From assembly GCF_007744675.1 (NCBI RefSeq), contig NZ_CP036269.1, positions 5,125,546-5,189,545 of the forward strand: a stretch of DNA of 64,000 nucleotides. Direction: 5' to 3'. This stretch comes from Gimesia alba. GTDB taxonomy: Bacteria; Planctomycetota; Planctomycetia; Planctomycetales; Planctomycetaceae. The notes beneath the pieces were generated by a model. It was not told the origin of the DNA, searched no databases, and worked only from the letters and a program-made list of their open reading frames with translations. Of this stretch, positions 29,712 to 45,347 are shown in pieces (the stretch's first letter is position 1; the number at the start of each line of letters is the position of its first letter). The position numbers and the translations under genes are program-made.

Positions 29712-30299
29712 TTAAGGTAAATATTTTTTCAATCCCTCAAGCTTCTCATTGCAGTTCTTGACCAGCGATTCTAATTGCGGGTCAGACTGACCGGCAGCAT
29801 CGATCATGGAGCGATAGTACTGCACGATTTCTTCCGGACTGGCGCCGAAGTGTCCCCAGAATTCCACTTTGTCTTCTGTTTGAAGATCAAACAGCATCGC
29901 TTCCAGGTTATGCAGTTTATCGGCCAGCTCAATTGCACGGGCACCCAGCGTCGCCTGTTGCATGACTTGAATGTGCCCCTGCTTGCGATCCCGCCAGCTC
30001 CGTTTTTTCCCTTCACGGGTCTCTTTCTCTTCCGTCATTTCTTTGACGTATTGAACCACCTCCCCGGAGAAGAGTTCCGCCAGTTCTTCGATCGTCAAAT
30101 CCGTATCCTCGACGACATCGTGCAGAACGGCTGCAGCGAGAATCGACTCATCATGGAACCCGGCCTTCATTAAGATCAGGCAGACACTCATCGGGTGTGA
30201 AATGTAGGGAATTCCAGACGATTTTCGTTTTTGAGACTTATGAGCCACAGCGGCCAGCCGGACCGCATGTTCGACTATGGGAGAGTGAAGTGGTTCCAT
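29712..30299 (-). CDS. HD-domain phosphohydrolase, SpoT/MESH1-like
   Basis: The HD fold of RelA/SpoT hydrolases is visible: HKSQKRKSSGIPYISHPMSV (first His), LHDVVEDTDLTIEELAELF (HD then ED) and LADKLHNLEAM (distal Asp). These residues bind manganese in enzymes that remove pyrophosphate from (p)ppGpp. Length (195 residues) is that of a small alarmone hydrolase or related phosphohydrolase without a synthetase domain. I choose ATG 30299; a TTG at 30320 is an alternative that lies 8 bp after the ABC gene stop. Close spacing implies co-transcription with the degenerate ABC protein and the ABC-2 permease upstream. Confidence 0.85.
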   Translation of the reverse strand: MEPLHSPIVEHAVRLAAVAHKSQKRKSSGIPYISHPMSVCLILMKAGFHDESILAAAVLHDVVEDTDLTIEELAELFSGEVVQYVKEMTEEKETREGKKRSWRDRKQGHIQVMQQATLGARAIELADKLHNLEAMLFDLQTEDKVEFWGHFGASPEEIVQYYRSMIDAAGQSDPQLESLVKNCNEKLEGLKKYLP

Positions 30300-30328
30300 G
30301 CCTGTTTCTTTGGGGTTCAACGTGCTGT

Positions 30329-32425
30329 CTAAGATTCCTGAGAGTGCCTGAACTGATTGAATCGCGTGTATTCCCAGTGGCGATAGAGGGCCGACTTCTT
30401 CAACAGATTCGATTGACTGTCAACAGCTTCGACCTTTCCTTCATGAATCAGCACAACCTGATCCACGCGGCGGAGTGTCGTAATCCGGGAGGGAATCACG
30501 AGAATAGTGCGATTCTGAAATATACGCGTGTAGGCATCCTCCAGAAGTGTCTTGGTATCATCATCGAGCGCTTCTTCTGGTTCTTCAATAATCATCAAGG
30601 CCGGCTTTCGCAACAAGGCCCGCGCCAAACCTAAACGAAACGATTCGCCTACCGTCAGCTCTTCTCCATGTTGTCCCAGTGCGGTTTCATAACCTTGTGG
30701 TAAATTCTGAATAAACTGATGTGCGTGCGCTTCTTTTGAAGCAGCGATTATTTCCTGCAGTGAATAACGTTCATCGCCGCATTGGATATTCTCTTTGACT
30801 GTCCCCGTTAAGCAGGGATCATTCCCGCTGACATAAATCGCTTCGGCCCTGAGTGATTCTAAAGTCACCCAGGCAGTGTCTTCCCCGTCCATCAAAACCC
30901 GTCCCGATTTTGGTTCGATGAACCGGGGAATCAGATAACTGACTGCCCGCGGTGCCAACGTTTCCAGCGACACCAGTGCCGTGCTGGTCCCCGCTGGAAT
31001 TTTGATATCAAAGCCATTGAGAATTTTCGGACCGTTGGCTGACTGGCTGTAGCTGACATTTTCGAATTGGAGTGATTGTGACAAGGGTTCCTGAAACTTG
31101 GCACCGACGGCCTGACTGACTTCCGGAATCTGATTCAGATAGCGATAGATGGAACTGGCGGCAATGCTGGCAGTATTTCGAATCTGCATCAGTTGATACA
31201 AGCCGTTGACTGGCAGATAGAAGAAGGCAAAAATGCCAACAAGTATGATTGCTGCAGAGAGCGGCAAACTTTCCGGATTGACCAGTACCTTATAGCCAAC
31301 CAGAAATAGAACCAGACAGGAACAGAACACCGCCAGACCGCGGGCAATGCGATGCCCCCAACCCTCAACGCGCTTCAGCTTATCAAGGTTATCCGTATAC
31401 TTATCGAGATATTTCTGAAACTGTTCATGCTCTGCGGTTTCCATGCCATAGCCGCGAACCAGCCGCGTGCTACGCAAATTTTCTGCAAGCAAGGAGAGCT
31501 CGGATTCAATATTCACCAGCGTTTTCGCATGCTGAATTTCGTACTCTTTTCGATGTTGCGACAAGAAGTACCAGGCCGCCGCCAGCGGAATCAGACACTG
31601 TAATGTCAGTCTCCAATCAATGGATATCGCGAATAGTAACAGGATCAACAGCGCGAGAGGATGGCGAGAAAGTTGATAGACCCACTCGAAAACGCCATTC
31701 TGAACCGTTCCGACATCCTTGATGAATAAGTGAAATGCCTGATCTGTTTCTTTGCCCGATAAATCGCCGGGGCCCAGGCGCAGTGCCTGTCGGTGAATCA
31801 TATTGCGCAACGTCGTAGAAACGTGATGCGAAATTTTCAGACTGCGCTGCCTTGCTCGCCAGCGAATCAGAACCCGGATGCTCGCCAGAATCAGAGCCAC
31901 CAGAATCAGAGTGAATAAAGCCGTCTGATTCTCCTGCAACAGGGGCACACGCTGGTAAATCCCCGACATAATTCCCAACTGATATTTGGAATGTAGCCAC
32001 CAGACTGAAGGAAGAATTCCAGAATCCGTCAGAATGCTCAAATTTAAATTCACGGGAGCAGGTGCGACGGGTTGCTTTTCTTCCGGTTGAGACGCGGGCT
32101 GCTTTGCAGCCGGTTCCGCCTGTTTTTTTTCTGTTTCCGCTTCTGCTGGTGGTGCGTCTGACTCTGCTTCCACAGGCGGGATGACAAGCGGGGGTACATT
32201 CCTGATTTTCTGGAGCAACTGGACATTCTGCTCGCCTCGGACAGTAATTCTCCCGCGATGATTGAGCAAGTCGACAATCAGAAACACGTCGACCAGTAAG
32301 CAGACCAGTACCAGGCCATTGATGAGAGACCAGAACAATACGGATCTGGCGGAACCCCGAAAGAATTCCCGCGCTGGAAACGCGCGGTGGAATGCGTTGG
32401 GCTGACGATTTGACACAAGACCCAC
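30329..32425 (-). CDS. ABC exporter-like protein with degenerate ATPase motifs
   Basis: 698 residues in the layout of a type IV (ABCB-like) half exporter: helix at about 34-53, helices to about 410, nucleotide-binding domain about 452-675. Between the first two helices is a Pro/Glu/Ala-rich insert (about 80-125) not usual in the family. The ATPase domain is in frame and well conserved in fold but its catalytic motifs are gone: the Walker A site reads SLETLAPRA (486-494) with no Gly, Lys, Ser or Thr in place; the Q-loop reads VSGNDP; the signature reads LTVGE (590-594); Walker B has Glu614 for Asp; the H-loop His is Ser646. It should not hydrolyse ATP as a homodimer. It is 46 bp after an ABC-2 permease gene and just before an HD gene. 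Confidence 0.88.
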   Translation of the reverse strand: MGLVSNRQPNAFHRAFPAREFFRGSARSVLFWSLINGLVLVCLLVDVFLIVDLLNHRGRITVRGEQNVQLLQKIRNVPPLVIPPVEAESDAPPAEAETEKKQAEPAAKQPASQPEEKQPVAPAPVNLNLSILTDSGILPSVWWLHSKYQLGIMSGIYQRVPLLQENQTALFTLILVALILASIRVLIRWRARQRSLKISHHVSTTLRNMIHRQALRLGPGDLSGKETDQAFHLFIKDVGTVQNGVFEWVYQLSRHPLALLILLLFAISIDWRLTLQCLIPLAAAWYFLSQHRKEYEIQHAKTLVNIESELSLLAENLRSTRLVRGYGMETAEHEQFQKYLDKYTDNLDKLKRVEGWGHRIARGLAVFCSCLVLFLVGYKVLVNPESLPLSAAIILVGIFAFFYLPVNGLYQLMQIRNTASIAASSIYRYLNQIPEVSQAVGAKFQEPLSQSLQFENVSYSQSANGPKILNGFDIKIPAGTSTALVSLETLAPRAVSYLIPRFIEPKSGRVLMDGEDTAWVTLESLRAEAIYVSGNDPCLTGTVKENIQCGDERYSLQEIIAASKEAHAHQFIQNLPQGYETALGQHGEELTVGESFRLGLARALLRKPALMIIEEPEEALDDDTKTLLEDAYTRIFQNRTILVIPSRITTLRRVDQVVLIHEGKVEAVDSQSNLLKKSALYRHWEYTRFNQFRHSQES

Positions 32426-32471: not shown

Positions 32472-33398
32472 TCAGGCAAGGTCACGGTCTTCAAAAAGGA
32501 TAAAGGCAACCAGAATCGCGATTCCAGAATAAAGCAGGCAGCTTAAAGCGGAATGGCCGATATAAACTGGTGGAACCACTGTTCCCGTTGCTACCGCGGG
32601 AGACATATTAAAGTTATCCAGGTTGGGCAGAATGGTGGCAATCAATTGCCCTGTGAATTTCACAAACTCCAGCCCTTCTGCTTTCGCCTGAACCAGGTTT
32701 GGTGTCAGGTGCCCAATGATATAGACACCGAAGCAAATAATCATGTTCACCATCATTGGCAGTCGAGTTGAAATGGCGACGCTGATTGCGGCCAGAATGG
32801 CGACTTCCATGTAGATCAAAAGAATCCCGGGCAGAATCAGCCAGACGGCGGCCATCTTTTCTGCATGACTGGGAACATCCTTTGAAGCTTCCCGCGCGTC
32901 ATAGCCAACTTTGAAATACACGAGTAACAGGAAGGTAATCACCAAGGGCAGCATCAGCCAGACGACGGCTTTCAGAATGCCCAGGTATTTTCCCACGATG
33001 AACTGCCGCCGATTGATCGGCTTGGACAGCAATGTCATTGCCGTCTTACCTTCAATTTCATCTGCAACACTCGTACTGGCTGACCAGACTGCCAGCAGCA
33101 GACTACAAATCAAAATGGTTGCCAGACCGCAGTCCATTAACATCTTGACATCATCGCCCATCGAAAAGAACGGGAGGAACGTATTCAACAATAACAGAAT
33201 CAAGCCTAACGCCACCAGGAGCAAAAAGACCGGCTGGCGAATGGCTTCTTTTGTCGTGGCACGGGCAATCACTCCTGCCTGCGTTTTGGCACTCACACCA
33301 AACAAAAGAATAAAATAGAGCAAAACCCCGGCACCGGTAATCCACCATTGCACAGTCAGGTCAGCGGTTTCAGCAGAAAAAACCAACAGGCTTTCCAT
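32472..33398 (-). CDS. ABC-2-type permease
   Basis: 308 residues with about six to seven hydrophobic helices (about 18-38, 55-75, 90-108, 145-167, 190-212, 220-240, 285-302). The segment DEIEGKTAMTLLSKPINRRQFIVGKYLGI after the third helix is the coupling region typical of ABC-2 permeases of the NatB/GldF kind. Such proteins need a separate ATPase. No ATPase gene precedes it (the 326 bp before it are empty), and the next gene downstream, 46 bp away, encodes an ABC protein whose ATPase motifs are destroyed. Transport substrate unknown. Confidence 0.87.
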   Translation of the reverse strand: MESLLVFSAETADLTVQWWITGAGVLLYFILLFGVSAKTQAGVIARATTKEAIRQPVFLLLVALGLILLLLNTFLPFFSMGDDVKMLMDCGLATILICSLLLAVWSASTSVADEIEGKTAMTLLSKPINRRQFIVGKYLGILKAVVWLMLPLVITFLLLVYFKVGYDAREASKDVPSHAEKMAAVWLILPGILLIYMEVAILAAISVAISTRLPMMVNMIICFGVYIIGHLTPNLVQAKAEGLEFVKFTGQLIATILPNLDNFNMSPAVATGTVVPPVYIGHSALSCLLYSGIAILVAFILFEDRDLA

Positions 33399-41899: not shown

Positions 41900-44122
41900 T
41901 CAAGCCGCGGAAGGATCGGTCGCCGGAGCTGGTTCTCCGCGATTGCTAATGTAAACCAGAACAAAGCCGGCAACCACAATCAACAGCGAGCCACCAAGCC
42001 AGGAGATCGGGAGATGCTTCTGATTTTCCAGATTGATCTCCCAGCGGGAAAGCGTATCCTGATAACTGGCGATAGTGATTAACAAACCGTTGTGAATCAT
42101 ATGGAGCAGGATGCCGGGAATCACACTGCGCGAGATCACATTCACGTATCCCAGACACAGCCCCATGAAGAAACTGGGGAAGAAGCGTTCGATGAACAGC
42201 GAATCGCGCACGATCACATGGAACAGCGCAAACAGAAAGGACGAGGCCAGAATGGCTCCGTTCGTTGAAAAGCGATTCAAGAGCGAACTTAACAGATACC
42301 CTCGAAAAAACAGCTCTTCGCATACAGCAGGTAATACCGCCAGCGAGACCAGTTTGACCCATAAGGGAATTGATGACAGCTCCAGTTTCATGGATTCAAA
42401 TAATTTGGAAAGTGTTTCGACTCGCGCATCGGAGAGCGCCATGATTTCGATTTCATATGCGAAGGGCCAGAGTGTCAAGCCGAGTAATATCGCGGCAAGA
42501 CAGGACAGCGCCTTAGGTCGATACCAGCGAAATCCGGATTTCAGTTTCACACCGCCCAGCCAGGCAAACAGCAGCGGGATCAAAAGAAACAGGCAGAATG
42601 TGAGTGTGCCCGAAACCAGCAGACGTTGCGAGAATGTGATTCCTCCCAGGCGGCTGACGAATGCAGCAGAGAGAATAAATGCTGGAAACATGACTGCCAG
42701 GCAGAGCATGGCATTATTCAAAGCAGGCACGAGATGTGTTTTTTTTGCCCGCTTGAAAAAGTCAGACCAGGAGGTTTCGCTTTGATATAAAATCGTATCG
42801 GTGCCAAATATTCGTGCCGCGAGACTTAGCGCCACCACTGCGTAAAACAGCGTGGAAAACACGGATACAAAAAACAGCAGAGGCTGGGCTTCGTGCAGCA
42901 GAAAATCTCGGCTAAGCAGCACAATGTTCGCTAAAGGAACGACCGCCCAGATCAATGTCATCTTTAAATTAGGCACCATTCCCAAAATGCCGGGCGCCAT
43001 TGAAATCAACATCAACGGAATCAAATATGCCTGGGCTTCTTTAAAGCTGCGGGCAAAGCTGGTGATACACAATAGCACCGCAGAAAAGAAAGCAGCAAAA
43101 ATCACCAGCAACAACAGGATTTCCAGAATAATTAACAGCGTCATCCCTTCGCCAAATAAGACGCTTTCCAGCCCGTTAGCATACGCGGTCGCCAGCATCG
43201 CCGTCATGTTCACGAGCGCAGTCAGAATCGCCACGACCAGCACAGCAAAAAACTTGGCAGACAGAATCCACATCCGCGGGAGTGGGGCTGCGATCAATGT
43301 TTCCAACGTCCCGCGTTCACGTTCACCGGCTGTCAGATCGATAGCGGGATAGACAGCACCGGTCATGGTCATCAGGATTAAAATCAAGGGGACGATCGTC
43401 ACTAGTGAATACGCCTGCTCAGTCTCAGACTTCACAGTCGCCACAGTCGTTTCAAAGGGGACGAGATTGCTTTCTCCCAGATTTTTCAGTAATTGATTCC
43501 GATAGTTCCAACGGACGGCCTGCAAACGGTCCTCAATATATTCAGCGGCACGTCGACTATGTGGCGATTGTGCACCGTAAATGATTTCGAATCGACCGCT
43601 GGTCTGTTTGTGTTTGGTTTTGCTATTCTCCACTTCGAGAGGAATATAGCGTACGCCGACATCGACGGACCCTTCACTGACCAGCTTGGAGAGATTCGAA
43701 TTTTTCCCGCTTTCCTCTGCGATCATGAATTTCATGACCGGCTTCACCTGTTGGAAGGCTGACAGCATCCCCTGCATTGGTTCCGATTCAGACTCTGATT
43801 CTGCCGATTTTGAATTTTCTTTCTCGGCCAGCATCGCATCACCCTGGTTGAACAGGGCGCGAAACAATTGTGCTTCCGAATCGTTGGGAAACACAACGCG
43901 ATATTCAACTTCACTGACTTGAGTCACTTGCTTCAATAAAAACTTCTGCAGCATGAGCCCAAGTAGCGGATAAACGAGCAAGGGCATTAAAATCAGTGTG
44001 ATGACCGTCCGACGATCGCGCAATATTTCTCGCAACTCTTTTTTCAGCAATCCTGAAAAACGAAACGAGGGAGTGGGAGTGTAGATGCGGTCATCAGAAT
44101 CCTGATCATAGGGAGACGCCAT
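41900..44122 (-). CDS. ABC-2 permease (NatB-like) fused to CPBP intramembrane protease
   Basis: 740 residues in two modules. Residues about 1-420 form a NatB-type ABC-2 permease: a helix near 40-60, a large exoplasmic domain, then six helices with YPAIDLTAGERERGTLETLIAAPLPR as the coupling helix. Residues about 470-720 form a CPBP protease (Rce1/CAAX-like) with CEELFFRGY (Glu602-Glu603, Arg607), FLFALFHV (His) and HMIHNGLLI (His, Asn), so its catalytic residues are complete. The start overlaps the stop of the ATPase gene by one base. The fusion suggests transport coupled to cleavage of a peptide or prenylated substrate, but that is inference. Confidence 0.9.
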   Translation of the reverse strand: MASPYDQDSDDRIYTPTPSFRFSGLLKKELREILRDRRTVITLILMPLLVYPLLGLMLQKFLLKQVTQVSEVEYRVVFPNDSEAQLFRALFNQGDAMLAEKENSKSAESESESEPMQGMLSAFQQVKPVMKFMIAEESGKNSNLSKLVSEGSVDVGVRYIPLEVENSKTKHKQTSGRFEIIYGAQSPHSRRAAEYIEDRLQAVRWNYRNQLLKNLGESNLVPFETTVATVKSETEQAYSLVTIVPLILILMTMTGAVYPAIDLTAGERERGTLETLIAAPLPRMWILSAKFFAVLVVAILTALVNMTAMLATAYANGLESVLFGEGMTLLIILEILLLLVIFAAFFSAVLLCITSFARSFKEAQAYLIPLMLISMAPGILGMVPNLKMTLIWAVVPLANIVLLSRDFLLHEAQPLLFFVSVFSTLFYAVVALSLAARIFGTDTILYQSETSWSDFFKRAKKTHLVPALNNAMLCLAVMFPAFILSAAFVSRLGGITFSQRLLVSGTLTFCLFLLIPLLFAWLGGVKLKSGFRWYRPKALSCLAAILLGLTLWPFAYEIEIMALSDARVETLSKLFESMKLELSSIPLWVKLVSLAVLPAVCEELFFRGYLLSSLLNRFSTNGAILASSFLFALFHVIVRDSLFIERFFPSFFMGLCLGYVNVISRSVIPGILLHMIHNGLLITIASYQDTLSRWEINLENQKHLPISWLGGSLLIVVAGFVLVYISNRGEPAPATDPSAA

Positions 44123-44898
44123 TAAATAAACTCCCGTTGCGCAGTGGGAATCGATTCAGCTGGCTCAACGGGCGCATCGAGCAGTTGCAGGAAGATTTGT
44201 GTTAATGTTTGACAGGACGTGCATTGTTGTAGTTCAGCCAGGGTTCCTTCATAGCTCTTTTTACCATTGTGCAGCAACCCGAAACGGTCACAGAGTTGCT
44301 CTGCTTCATCCAGCCGATGGGTGCAGACAATCACGGCTTTACCTTCATCGCGCAGCAGATCGATGTAATCAAAAATCACTTTACTGCCTACAACATCCAG
44401 GCCGCGCGTTGGTTCATCCATCAACATCACGGGAGGATCATGAATTAAAGACCGTGCCAGGTTCACACGTTGTTTTTGCCCCGTGCTCAGGGTGGCAGAA
44501 CGACGATCGAGAAAGGGATTGATATCGAACAACCGAGACAGTTTTTCAATCTGGTCTTCTGCCTGGACGCGGGGAACTCCATACACGTCGGCAAAGAAGG
44601 AAAGAATCTCGCGCGGCGTCAGCCATTGATAGAGGCCCGCACTGGTCGAGACCAGACCAACCCGCCGTTTGATTTCATCAGGATGACTTGAAACCAGAAA
44701 GCCTTCGACTTCCGCATCACCGCTGGTTGGTTTCAACAGCCCCAGGATCATGCGGAGCGTCGTTGTTTTGCCGGCACCATTGGGTCCCAGCAAACCATAG
44801 ACTTCCCCCTGCTCTACCTGGAACGAGATCTGGTCAACTGCGAGAACATCCTGATTTCTCGCTTCGAATATTCGCGTGAGATCTTTAACAAAAATCAT
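44122..44898 (-). CDS. ABC transporter ATP-binding protein (NatA-like)
   Basis: 258 residues from ATG 44898, just after AAGG; a longer frame to 45150 adds sequence of no recognisable type. [10 protein letters not shown] is Walker [16 protein letters not shown] the signature, [14 protein letters not shown] Walker B and [14 protein letters not shown] the H-loop, all intact. Together with the permease-CPBP fusion gene immediately downstream (one-base overlap) it makes a complete exporter. This contrasts with the damaged ABC protein at 30.3-32.4 kb. Confidence 0.95.
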
Positions 44899-45347
44899 GC
44901 TGGCCCGCCTTCTGCTCTCGCCTGACCCACCCGTGAAGCACAATCCATGCGCCCTGAATGCAGCATTCATGAAATGACAGGTTGTGTCACGACGAAAAAA
45001 AAATGACTTGAAGGATTTGCCTGCTTCAAACACGTTGATATCACGAGAACTGTGAATCGAAATGCTGGCGCACCACCAACGTGATCTGGGTCGAGGACAT
45101 TCTAACAAACTCCAGGCCAGTCTGTCACGTACTAAAAACGCTACCACCAAAGAATCAGTAAAGAAGTCAGAATGCCTTCCCCCTGAAGCATTTGAACATT
45201 TTTGTACCAGGTCCTCATTTTTTCAGGACTTCAAGAAGCCCGCTGAAACTCCTTGCACCATCTCGCCAGCGCGACCACAATAAAGAAACACAACTGTGCC
45301 TCGCTATTTATCATCTGCGATTCTTCCAAACACAAAAAGGTCTTCCG
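44899..45347. other. Divergent intergenic region, nothing recognised
   Basis: About 450 bp between the NatA-like gene and the beta-propeller gene. Frames extend into it from both sides but without family features. No clear promoter or terminator. Confidence 0.5.

Follow-up and report, generated by a model that had tools for sequence, protein, structure and literature searches.

The stretch of Gimesia alba DNA analysed here, 64,000 nucleotides long and called the window throughout, carries on its minus strand a gene for a protein built like one half of an ABC exporter, with a gene for an ABC-2 permease immediately upstream (gap about 50 bp) and an HD-domain gene directly downstream. Positions of these genes, and of the domains and motifs of the exporter-like product, which we call the pseudo-exporter, are collected in Table 1.

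Table 1. Features of the pseudo-exporter locus in the window
Feature	Position	Strand	Basis
HD-domain gene (HD_4, SpoT-hydrolase-like), directly downstream of the pseudo-exporter gene	29712-30320	-	
Pseudo-ABC half-exporter gene, 698 aa	30329-32425	-	ORF, Pfam, AlphaFold2, Foldseek
First TM helix, residues 24-56	32258-32356	-	Model helix; membrane position inferred
TM1-TM2 loop, residues 57-165; long, partly disordered, presumably periplasmic	31931-32257	-	
Remaining transmembrane domain, residues 166-430	31136-31930	-	PF00664 and model helices
Pseudo-NBD, residues 450-690	30356-31078	-	PF00005, model, conservation
A-loop site (presumed), Ser462	31040-31042	-	Conservation comparison
Lost Walker A, VSLETLAPRA 485-494, Lys position = Pro492	30944-30973	-	Alignment
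Lost Q-loop, VSGNDPCLTG 532-541, Gln position = Gly534	30803-30832	-	Alignment
Lost signature, LTVGE 590-594, Ser position = Thr591	30644-30658	-	Alignment
Altered Walker B, LMIIEE 610-615, Asp replaced by Glu614, E615 kept	30581-30598	-	Alignment
Lost H-loop, IPSRI 644-648, His position = Ser646, Arg647 kept	30482-30496	-	Alignment
NosY-like ABC-2 permease gene	32472-33398	-	PF12679, adjacency, model and Foldseek

Domains and predicted structure of the pseudo-exporter

The open reading frame, called exactly at the coordinates given in the table, starts with GTG and has no interruption. In its product, PF00664 (ABC_membrane) matches residues 168-401 with 56.3 bits and PF00005 (ABC_tran) matches residues 499-616 with 39.1 bits, both above the curated cut-off, and the order of the two, transmembrane domain (TMD) followed by nucleotide-binding domain (NBD), is that of a type IV ABC half-transporter. 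Of the 137 positions of the ABC_tran profile, 31-135 are matched, which leaves out its N-terminal part with the P-loop. According to the AlphaFold2 monomer model (m69e749b5834f, 34 sequences; mean pLDDT 85, pTM 0.74) the protein is predicted to have the fold of an exporter half, with TM287/288, MsbA, ABCB10 and ABCB8 as the top rows in Foldseek. The loop between the first two TM helices falls below pLDDT 50 at residues 83-126, and the P-loop is reduced in the model to a three-residue turn between the end of a strand at 486 and the start of a helix at 490.

Loss of catalytic motifs

Motif positions were read from an alignment with 37 intact exporters. Among the elements of a functional ABC ATPase, the Walker A consensus GxxGxGK[ST], the Q-loop Gln, the signature Ser, the Walker B Asp and the H-loop His are all absent, and the catalytic Glu after Walker B (E615) is present; the D-loop Asp (D621) and Arg647 are retained as well. 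At position 462, which we take to be the A-loop site, the protein has Ser, where 99% of the 78 intact rows compared have Tyr. An earlier note on this DNA had read Walker A as replaced by SLETLAPRA, the Q-loop by VSGNDP, LSGGQ by LTVGE, the Walker B Asp by Glu614 and the H-loop His by Ser646, and the alignment agrees with it at each of these sites; its wording that every motif was lost went slightly too far, as E615 and D621 remain.

Distribution of the losses among relatives

The same type of loss is present in homologs just 25-50% identical to the window protein, which is beyond chance. Motifs were counted in 84 non-redundant family members, the window protein included. Within Walker A, the first Gly is kept in 30/84, the second in 0/84 and the third in 2/84, the Lys in 20/84 and the Ser/Thr in 0/84, while the Q-loop Gln is found in 22/84, the signature Ser in 5/84 and the H-loop His in 18/84. 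A single member (1/84) has the Walker B Asp, and Glu takes its place in 76/84. Invariant are the catalytic Glu and Arg647 (84/84 each); Pro616 occurs in 81/84.

In the window's taxonomic family the Walker A Lys, the Q-loop Gln and the H-loop His are all missing from every one of the 29 rows gathered in genome searches. In the 112-row tree described below, no row keeping Lys or His falls within the 42-row clade to which the window protein belongs (one such row, L131, is labelled Planctomycetaceae), and the loss therefore looks stepwise. The passage from relatives that retain Lys, Gln or His to the window's family, where all three are missing (0/29), suggests an order in which the motifs went.

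A search covering 59 genomes, with that of the window among them, gave a match in all 59, ordinary exporters being among the matches. When 50 best-hit loci were aligned, the window's gene (L001) included, 48 had broken motifs; the two others (L047, L049) are intact exporters from genomes with no detected pseudo-exporter. A pseudo-exporter gene beside a permease gene was not found in G039, G040, G045, G049, G054 and G057. These comprise every genome of f5 and f7 (5/5) and 1/3 of f4. A very divergent copy could escape such a search, that of G055 (L091) being 21% identical to the window protein and detected via its neighbour gene. Among the best 80 of 566 relatives in a scan of GTDB r220, 45 are broken and 35 intact, a clean split. 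These broken rows are planctomycete-labelled except L141 (Bacterium) and L104 (Candidatus Kuenenia), and the intact ones come from many phyla, Planctomycetota among them. L104 is a MAG labelled Candidatus Kuenenia stuttgartiensis, which carries the pair of pseudo-exporter and permease and groups with Planctomycetaceae rows in the tree; it is probably a mislabelled bin. From a draw of 195 genomes of the phylum, in which other families of the class are represented by f5 and f7 only (seven genomes), the 20 that belong to the window's family reach 639-945 bits against the family profile; the remaining 175 genomes score 415 bits or less, the level of ordinary exporters. The earlier note had named relatives with normal motifs as the sign of a decaying gene; no intact member was found within the family in the alignments or the tree.

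Descent

Both trees were built after removal of the motif columns. The 112-row tree has the pseudo-exporter family as one side of a branch (75 rows, SH-aLRT 100), and the 60-row tree, with more paralogs, as a single clade of 17 rows (100/100). In the latter, this clade forms one group (100/100) together with an intact MsbA-like exporter type, named L210-type after its representative in the window's genome, and six other-class planctomycete exporters. The nearest sister of the clade is supported at 88/55 only. With a length of 0.9 the branch leading to the clade is long, and its placement may in part reflect an attraction artefact. Judged by these trees, the family arose inside a Planctomycetota MsbA-like group.

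Selection on the NBD

Values of dN/dS were obtained by NG86 for ten selected pairs, of which nine belong to the genus of the window and one comes from group f3; single values are rough, because dS is 1.3 in one pair and 0.09-0.2 in four. The NBD gave 0.015-0.068 and the TMD a similar 0.009-0.066, and the N-terminal part (residues 1-160), with 0.078-0.322, is the fastest-evolving one. Purifying selection acts strongly on the dead NBD. Its mean entropy is 1.61 bits in the pseudo-exporter set vs 1.66 bits in 78 intact exporters, a weak comparison, since the sets are unmatched in breadth (one class vs many phyla). At 17 NBD positions a residue conserved in at least 80% of the pseudo-exporter set is found in less than 50% of the intact set; E614, P616, D630 and R634 are examples. 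ATP binding is not expected of this NBD, and selection of such strength on it speaks for the domain itself having a structural or allosteric role.

The upstream permease and the gene neighbourhood

Upstream sequence of 1300 bp or more was available for 72 unique loci. In 65 of these the permease gene lies directly upstream of the pseudo-exporter gene and on the same strand (median gap 91 bp), and in seven the two are not adjacent. The pair is kept across family-level distances, while most other neighbours differ. A strong match to the permease (E 1.6e-27 or better) is present in 57/59 genomes, including genomes with no detected pseudo-exporter, so the permease can do without it.

The AlphaFold2 model of the permease (m98ca4cc8e061) has a mean pLDDT of 83.6. 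Foldseek ranks 1-11 are chains of NosDFY, nine of them at E <0.001 and, for these nine, with TM by query of 0.50-0.60; the match is modest (rmsd 4.9-7.4). We take the matched chains to be NosY, the chain name not being part of the listing. No ABC ATPase gene next to the pair came up in motif scans, G044 apart, which has an intact exporter and, at the far end of another stretch, an ABC ATPase-like ORF, both some kb away. Thirty permease-homolog loci (20 from other classes), scanned over about 1.5 kb on each side, had no ORF with both motifs, and a NosF-like ATPase gene adjoining the permease was not found in the loci scanned.

Some permeases of group f5 that occur without a pseudo-exporter (L087, L089, L090, L092) are 519-598 aa long vs 273-439 aa in other loci, and in the two that were aligned the extra N-terminal part includes a stretch that may be a non-membrane domain. 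The window also holds, about 10 kb from the pseudo-exporter gene, a separate ABC-2 permease fused to an Rce1-like CAAX protease domain (41900-44122), accompanied by an ABC ATPase gene (44122-45150).

The next commonest neighbour cluster, acylphosphatase-like by eye, is present in 13/32 loci. That of the HD_4 gene, in 10/32, is outside the conserved core. In 6/32 loci (L057, L069-L073) the pseudo-exporter gene is followed, at a distance of 3.0-4.4 kb, by a kdsB-type (KDO cytidylyltransferase) cluster, two of the six having been checked by NCBIfam; near four L210-type genes no kdsB-type gene was recognised by eye from the starts of the ORFs. This cluster and the MsbA-like descent are the sole hints at envelope lipids as a substrate, and we regard a link to LPS as a weak lead. 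A link to anti-phage defence was rejected, as it came down to a single generic match to mad3 (41.2 bits).

A proposed membrane subunit that may work with the permease

The pseudo-exporter probably has a function for which it does not itself require ATP. We favour, at somewhat less than even chances, the reading that it is an ancient pseudo-ABC exporter and serves as a non-hydrolysing membrane subunit, most likely together with the upstream permease. An MsbA-like half-transporter would have split off within a planctomycete exporter group, and its lineage would have lost the means of binding and hydrolysing ATP step by step and been retained as a non-hydrolysing membrane subunit. This subunit may assemble with the ABC-2 permease, probably as a dimer whose NBDs would pack without ATP, and could have a part in envelope or lipid traffic, be it as scaffold, as gate or in handling the substrate; any ATP consumed would be used by an ATPase whose gene lies elsewhere. 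Because of the conserved gene pair, the permease ranks first among the candidate partners, and the L210-type exporter comes second.

A more specific proposal, which we hold to be rather unlikely, is a hybrid of two ABC membrane folds, the pseudo-ATPase exporter and the NosY-like permease, in which the dead NBD would serve as a clamp or gate. If it were true, much of a bacterial class would bear a pure pseudo-ATPase ABC exporter. From the role proposed in the earlier note, a dead ATPase kept for another purpose is in keeping with these results, whereas a regulatory, structural or channel-like function, or a partner elsewhere, went further than the evidence reaches. The conserved permease gene upstream had escaped that note.

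Other partners and other roles

A search of the window's genome with PF00664 gave four matches, the pseudo-exporter being one of them. The pseudo-exporter could be the dead half of a heterodimer with the intact L210-type exporter (G000:C1:5740812-5742899), with an extreme form of degenerate site, which we consider rather improbable. The L210-type is the only intact half present in all 19 genomes tested (375-1522 bits), it groups with the pseudo-exporter clade in the Planctomycetota group described above, both proteins have by eye a long TM1-TM2 loop, and degenerate-site heterodimers are known in the exporter fold, as described in passages of PMC7756269. However, the two genes are unlinked in the window's genome, and the 19 genomes comprise 13 with a pseudo-exporter and six with none detected, in which the L210-type must work without it. 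As the pseudo-exporter has neither a Walker A of its own nor a canonical signature, neither composite site of such a heterodimer would be canonical, and the weakly supported sister of the clade (88/55) speaks against this pairing as well. In the neighbourhoods scanned, the partner search proposed in the earlier note yielded no ABC half beside the pseudo-exporter, except for the intact exporter some genes away in G044; it gave one unlinked candidate.

Two further types were rejected as partners. The L211-type has an ortholog-level match (>700 bits; other genomes 311 or less) in 8/19 genomes, and six genomes bearing a pseudo-exporter are among the 11 without one, so it is no general partner; the L213-type is matched in 15/19, G037 and G041, which bear a pseudo-exporter, not being among them. 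L213/L261 (G000:C1:5909930-5912110) is itself a second degenerate ABC exporter half of the window's genome. It keeps the Walker A GPSGTGKS and has by eye an Arg in the Q-loop, LTSNQ as signature and neither catalytic Glu nor H-loop His, and its gene adjoins HlyD-like and outer-membrane efflux genes. Ten L210-type rows, from the window's family and f2 (L210, L214-L217, L220, L222, L223, L251, L252), have lost the Arg after the H-loop His, which the pseudo-exporter family keeps in 84/84.

That the pseudo-exporter forms a homodimeric, ATP-independent channel, facilitator or scramblase on the exporter fold is distinctly unlikely: the nucleotide-contact motifs are gone and the TMD and predicted fold retained, as such a protein would have it, but the strong selection on the NBD and the linkage to the permease are left unexplained. 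Very doubtful, too, is the view that adjacency to the permease is mere shared synteny and that the pseudo-exporter has an unrelated role, e.g. sensing of nucleotides or lipids. That nearly all of the 59 relatives have the permease, some of them with no detected pseudo-exporter, fits this view; the persistence of the pair over family-level distances, at which most other neighbours have changed, does not. One internal stop was counted in each of four family matches (G036, G017, G011, G021), three of which yielded a full-length open frame (L022, L024, L033), and the fourth, in G011, is a fragment lying where a contig ends. Decay of the gene or an error of sequencing, to which the missing catalytic motifs might point, can be all but dismissed in view of the long open frames in relatives, the broad conservation, NBD dN/dS <0.07 and the family-specific conserved residues.

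Comparison with known systems

The pseudo-exporter resembles MsbA and other type IV (ABCB-like) exporters in its predicted fold, in the order of TMD and NBD and in being a half-transporter. Its best NCBIfam model is that of MsbA (TIGR02203), with 207.6 bits vs a cut-off of 602, which is far below the level for assignment as MsbA, and unlike MsbA and the ABCB-like exporters it is without usable Walker A, Q-loop, signature, Walker B Asp and H-loop. For the permease, chains of NosDFY are the best structural matches; its neighbour, however, is the pseudo-exporter and not a NosF-like ATPase. We know of no complex of this type between an ABC exporter and a NosY-like permease. No title or beginning of an abstract in the literature searched describes the pseudo-exporter family, and in the main text of PMC10632474, on gene essentiality in Planctopirus limnophila, the terms 'ABC transporter' and 'permease' do not occur.

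Besides Pdr5, exporters with a degenerate site include TM287/288, TmrAB and TAP. In Pdr5, according to passages of PMC7756269, the degenerate site has lost the Walker A Lys, the Walker B Glu, the H-loop His and the signature, spread over two NBDs, and Pdr5 shows that transport can go on when several motifs are lost from one composite site. The pseudo-exporter is like such sites in that catalytic residues are replaced and the fold is kept. With Pdr5 as a precedent, though one whose losses are spread over two NBDs, the earlier note overstated the case in placing the losses far beyond known heterodimers. Degenerate-site exporters have their losses in one composite site and a canonical other one, whereas in the pseudo-exporter a single NBD lacks both Walker A and signature, which would leave no canonical composite site with any partner. 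A linked partner half is lacking too, unlike in the degenerate-site heterodimers. Loss of Walker A and signature in one NBD, fixed over a clade of several planctomycete families and with no linked intact half, appears to be new. The degenerate ABC sites described in passages of PMC7756269 keep one working site; in the pseudo-exporter clade the ATP-contacting set is gone from one and the same NBD, and, with selection on the NBD as strong as on the TMD, the clade offers a natural way of testing which functions an NBD has besides ATP hydrolysis.
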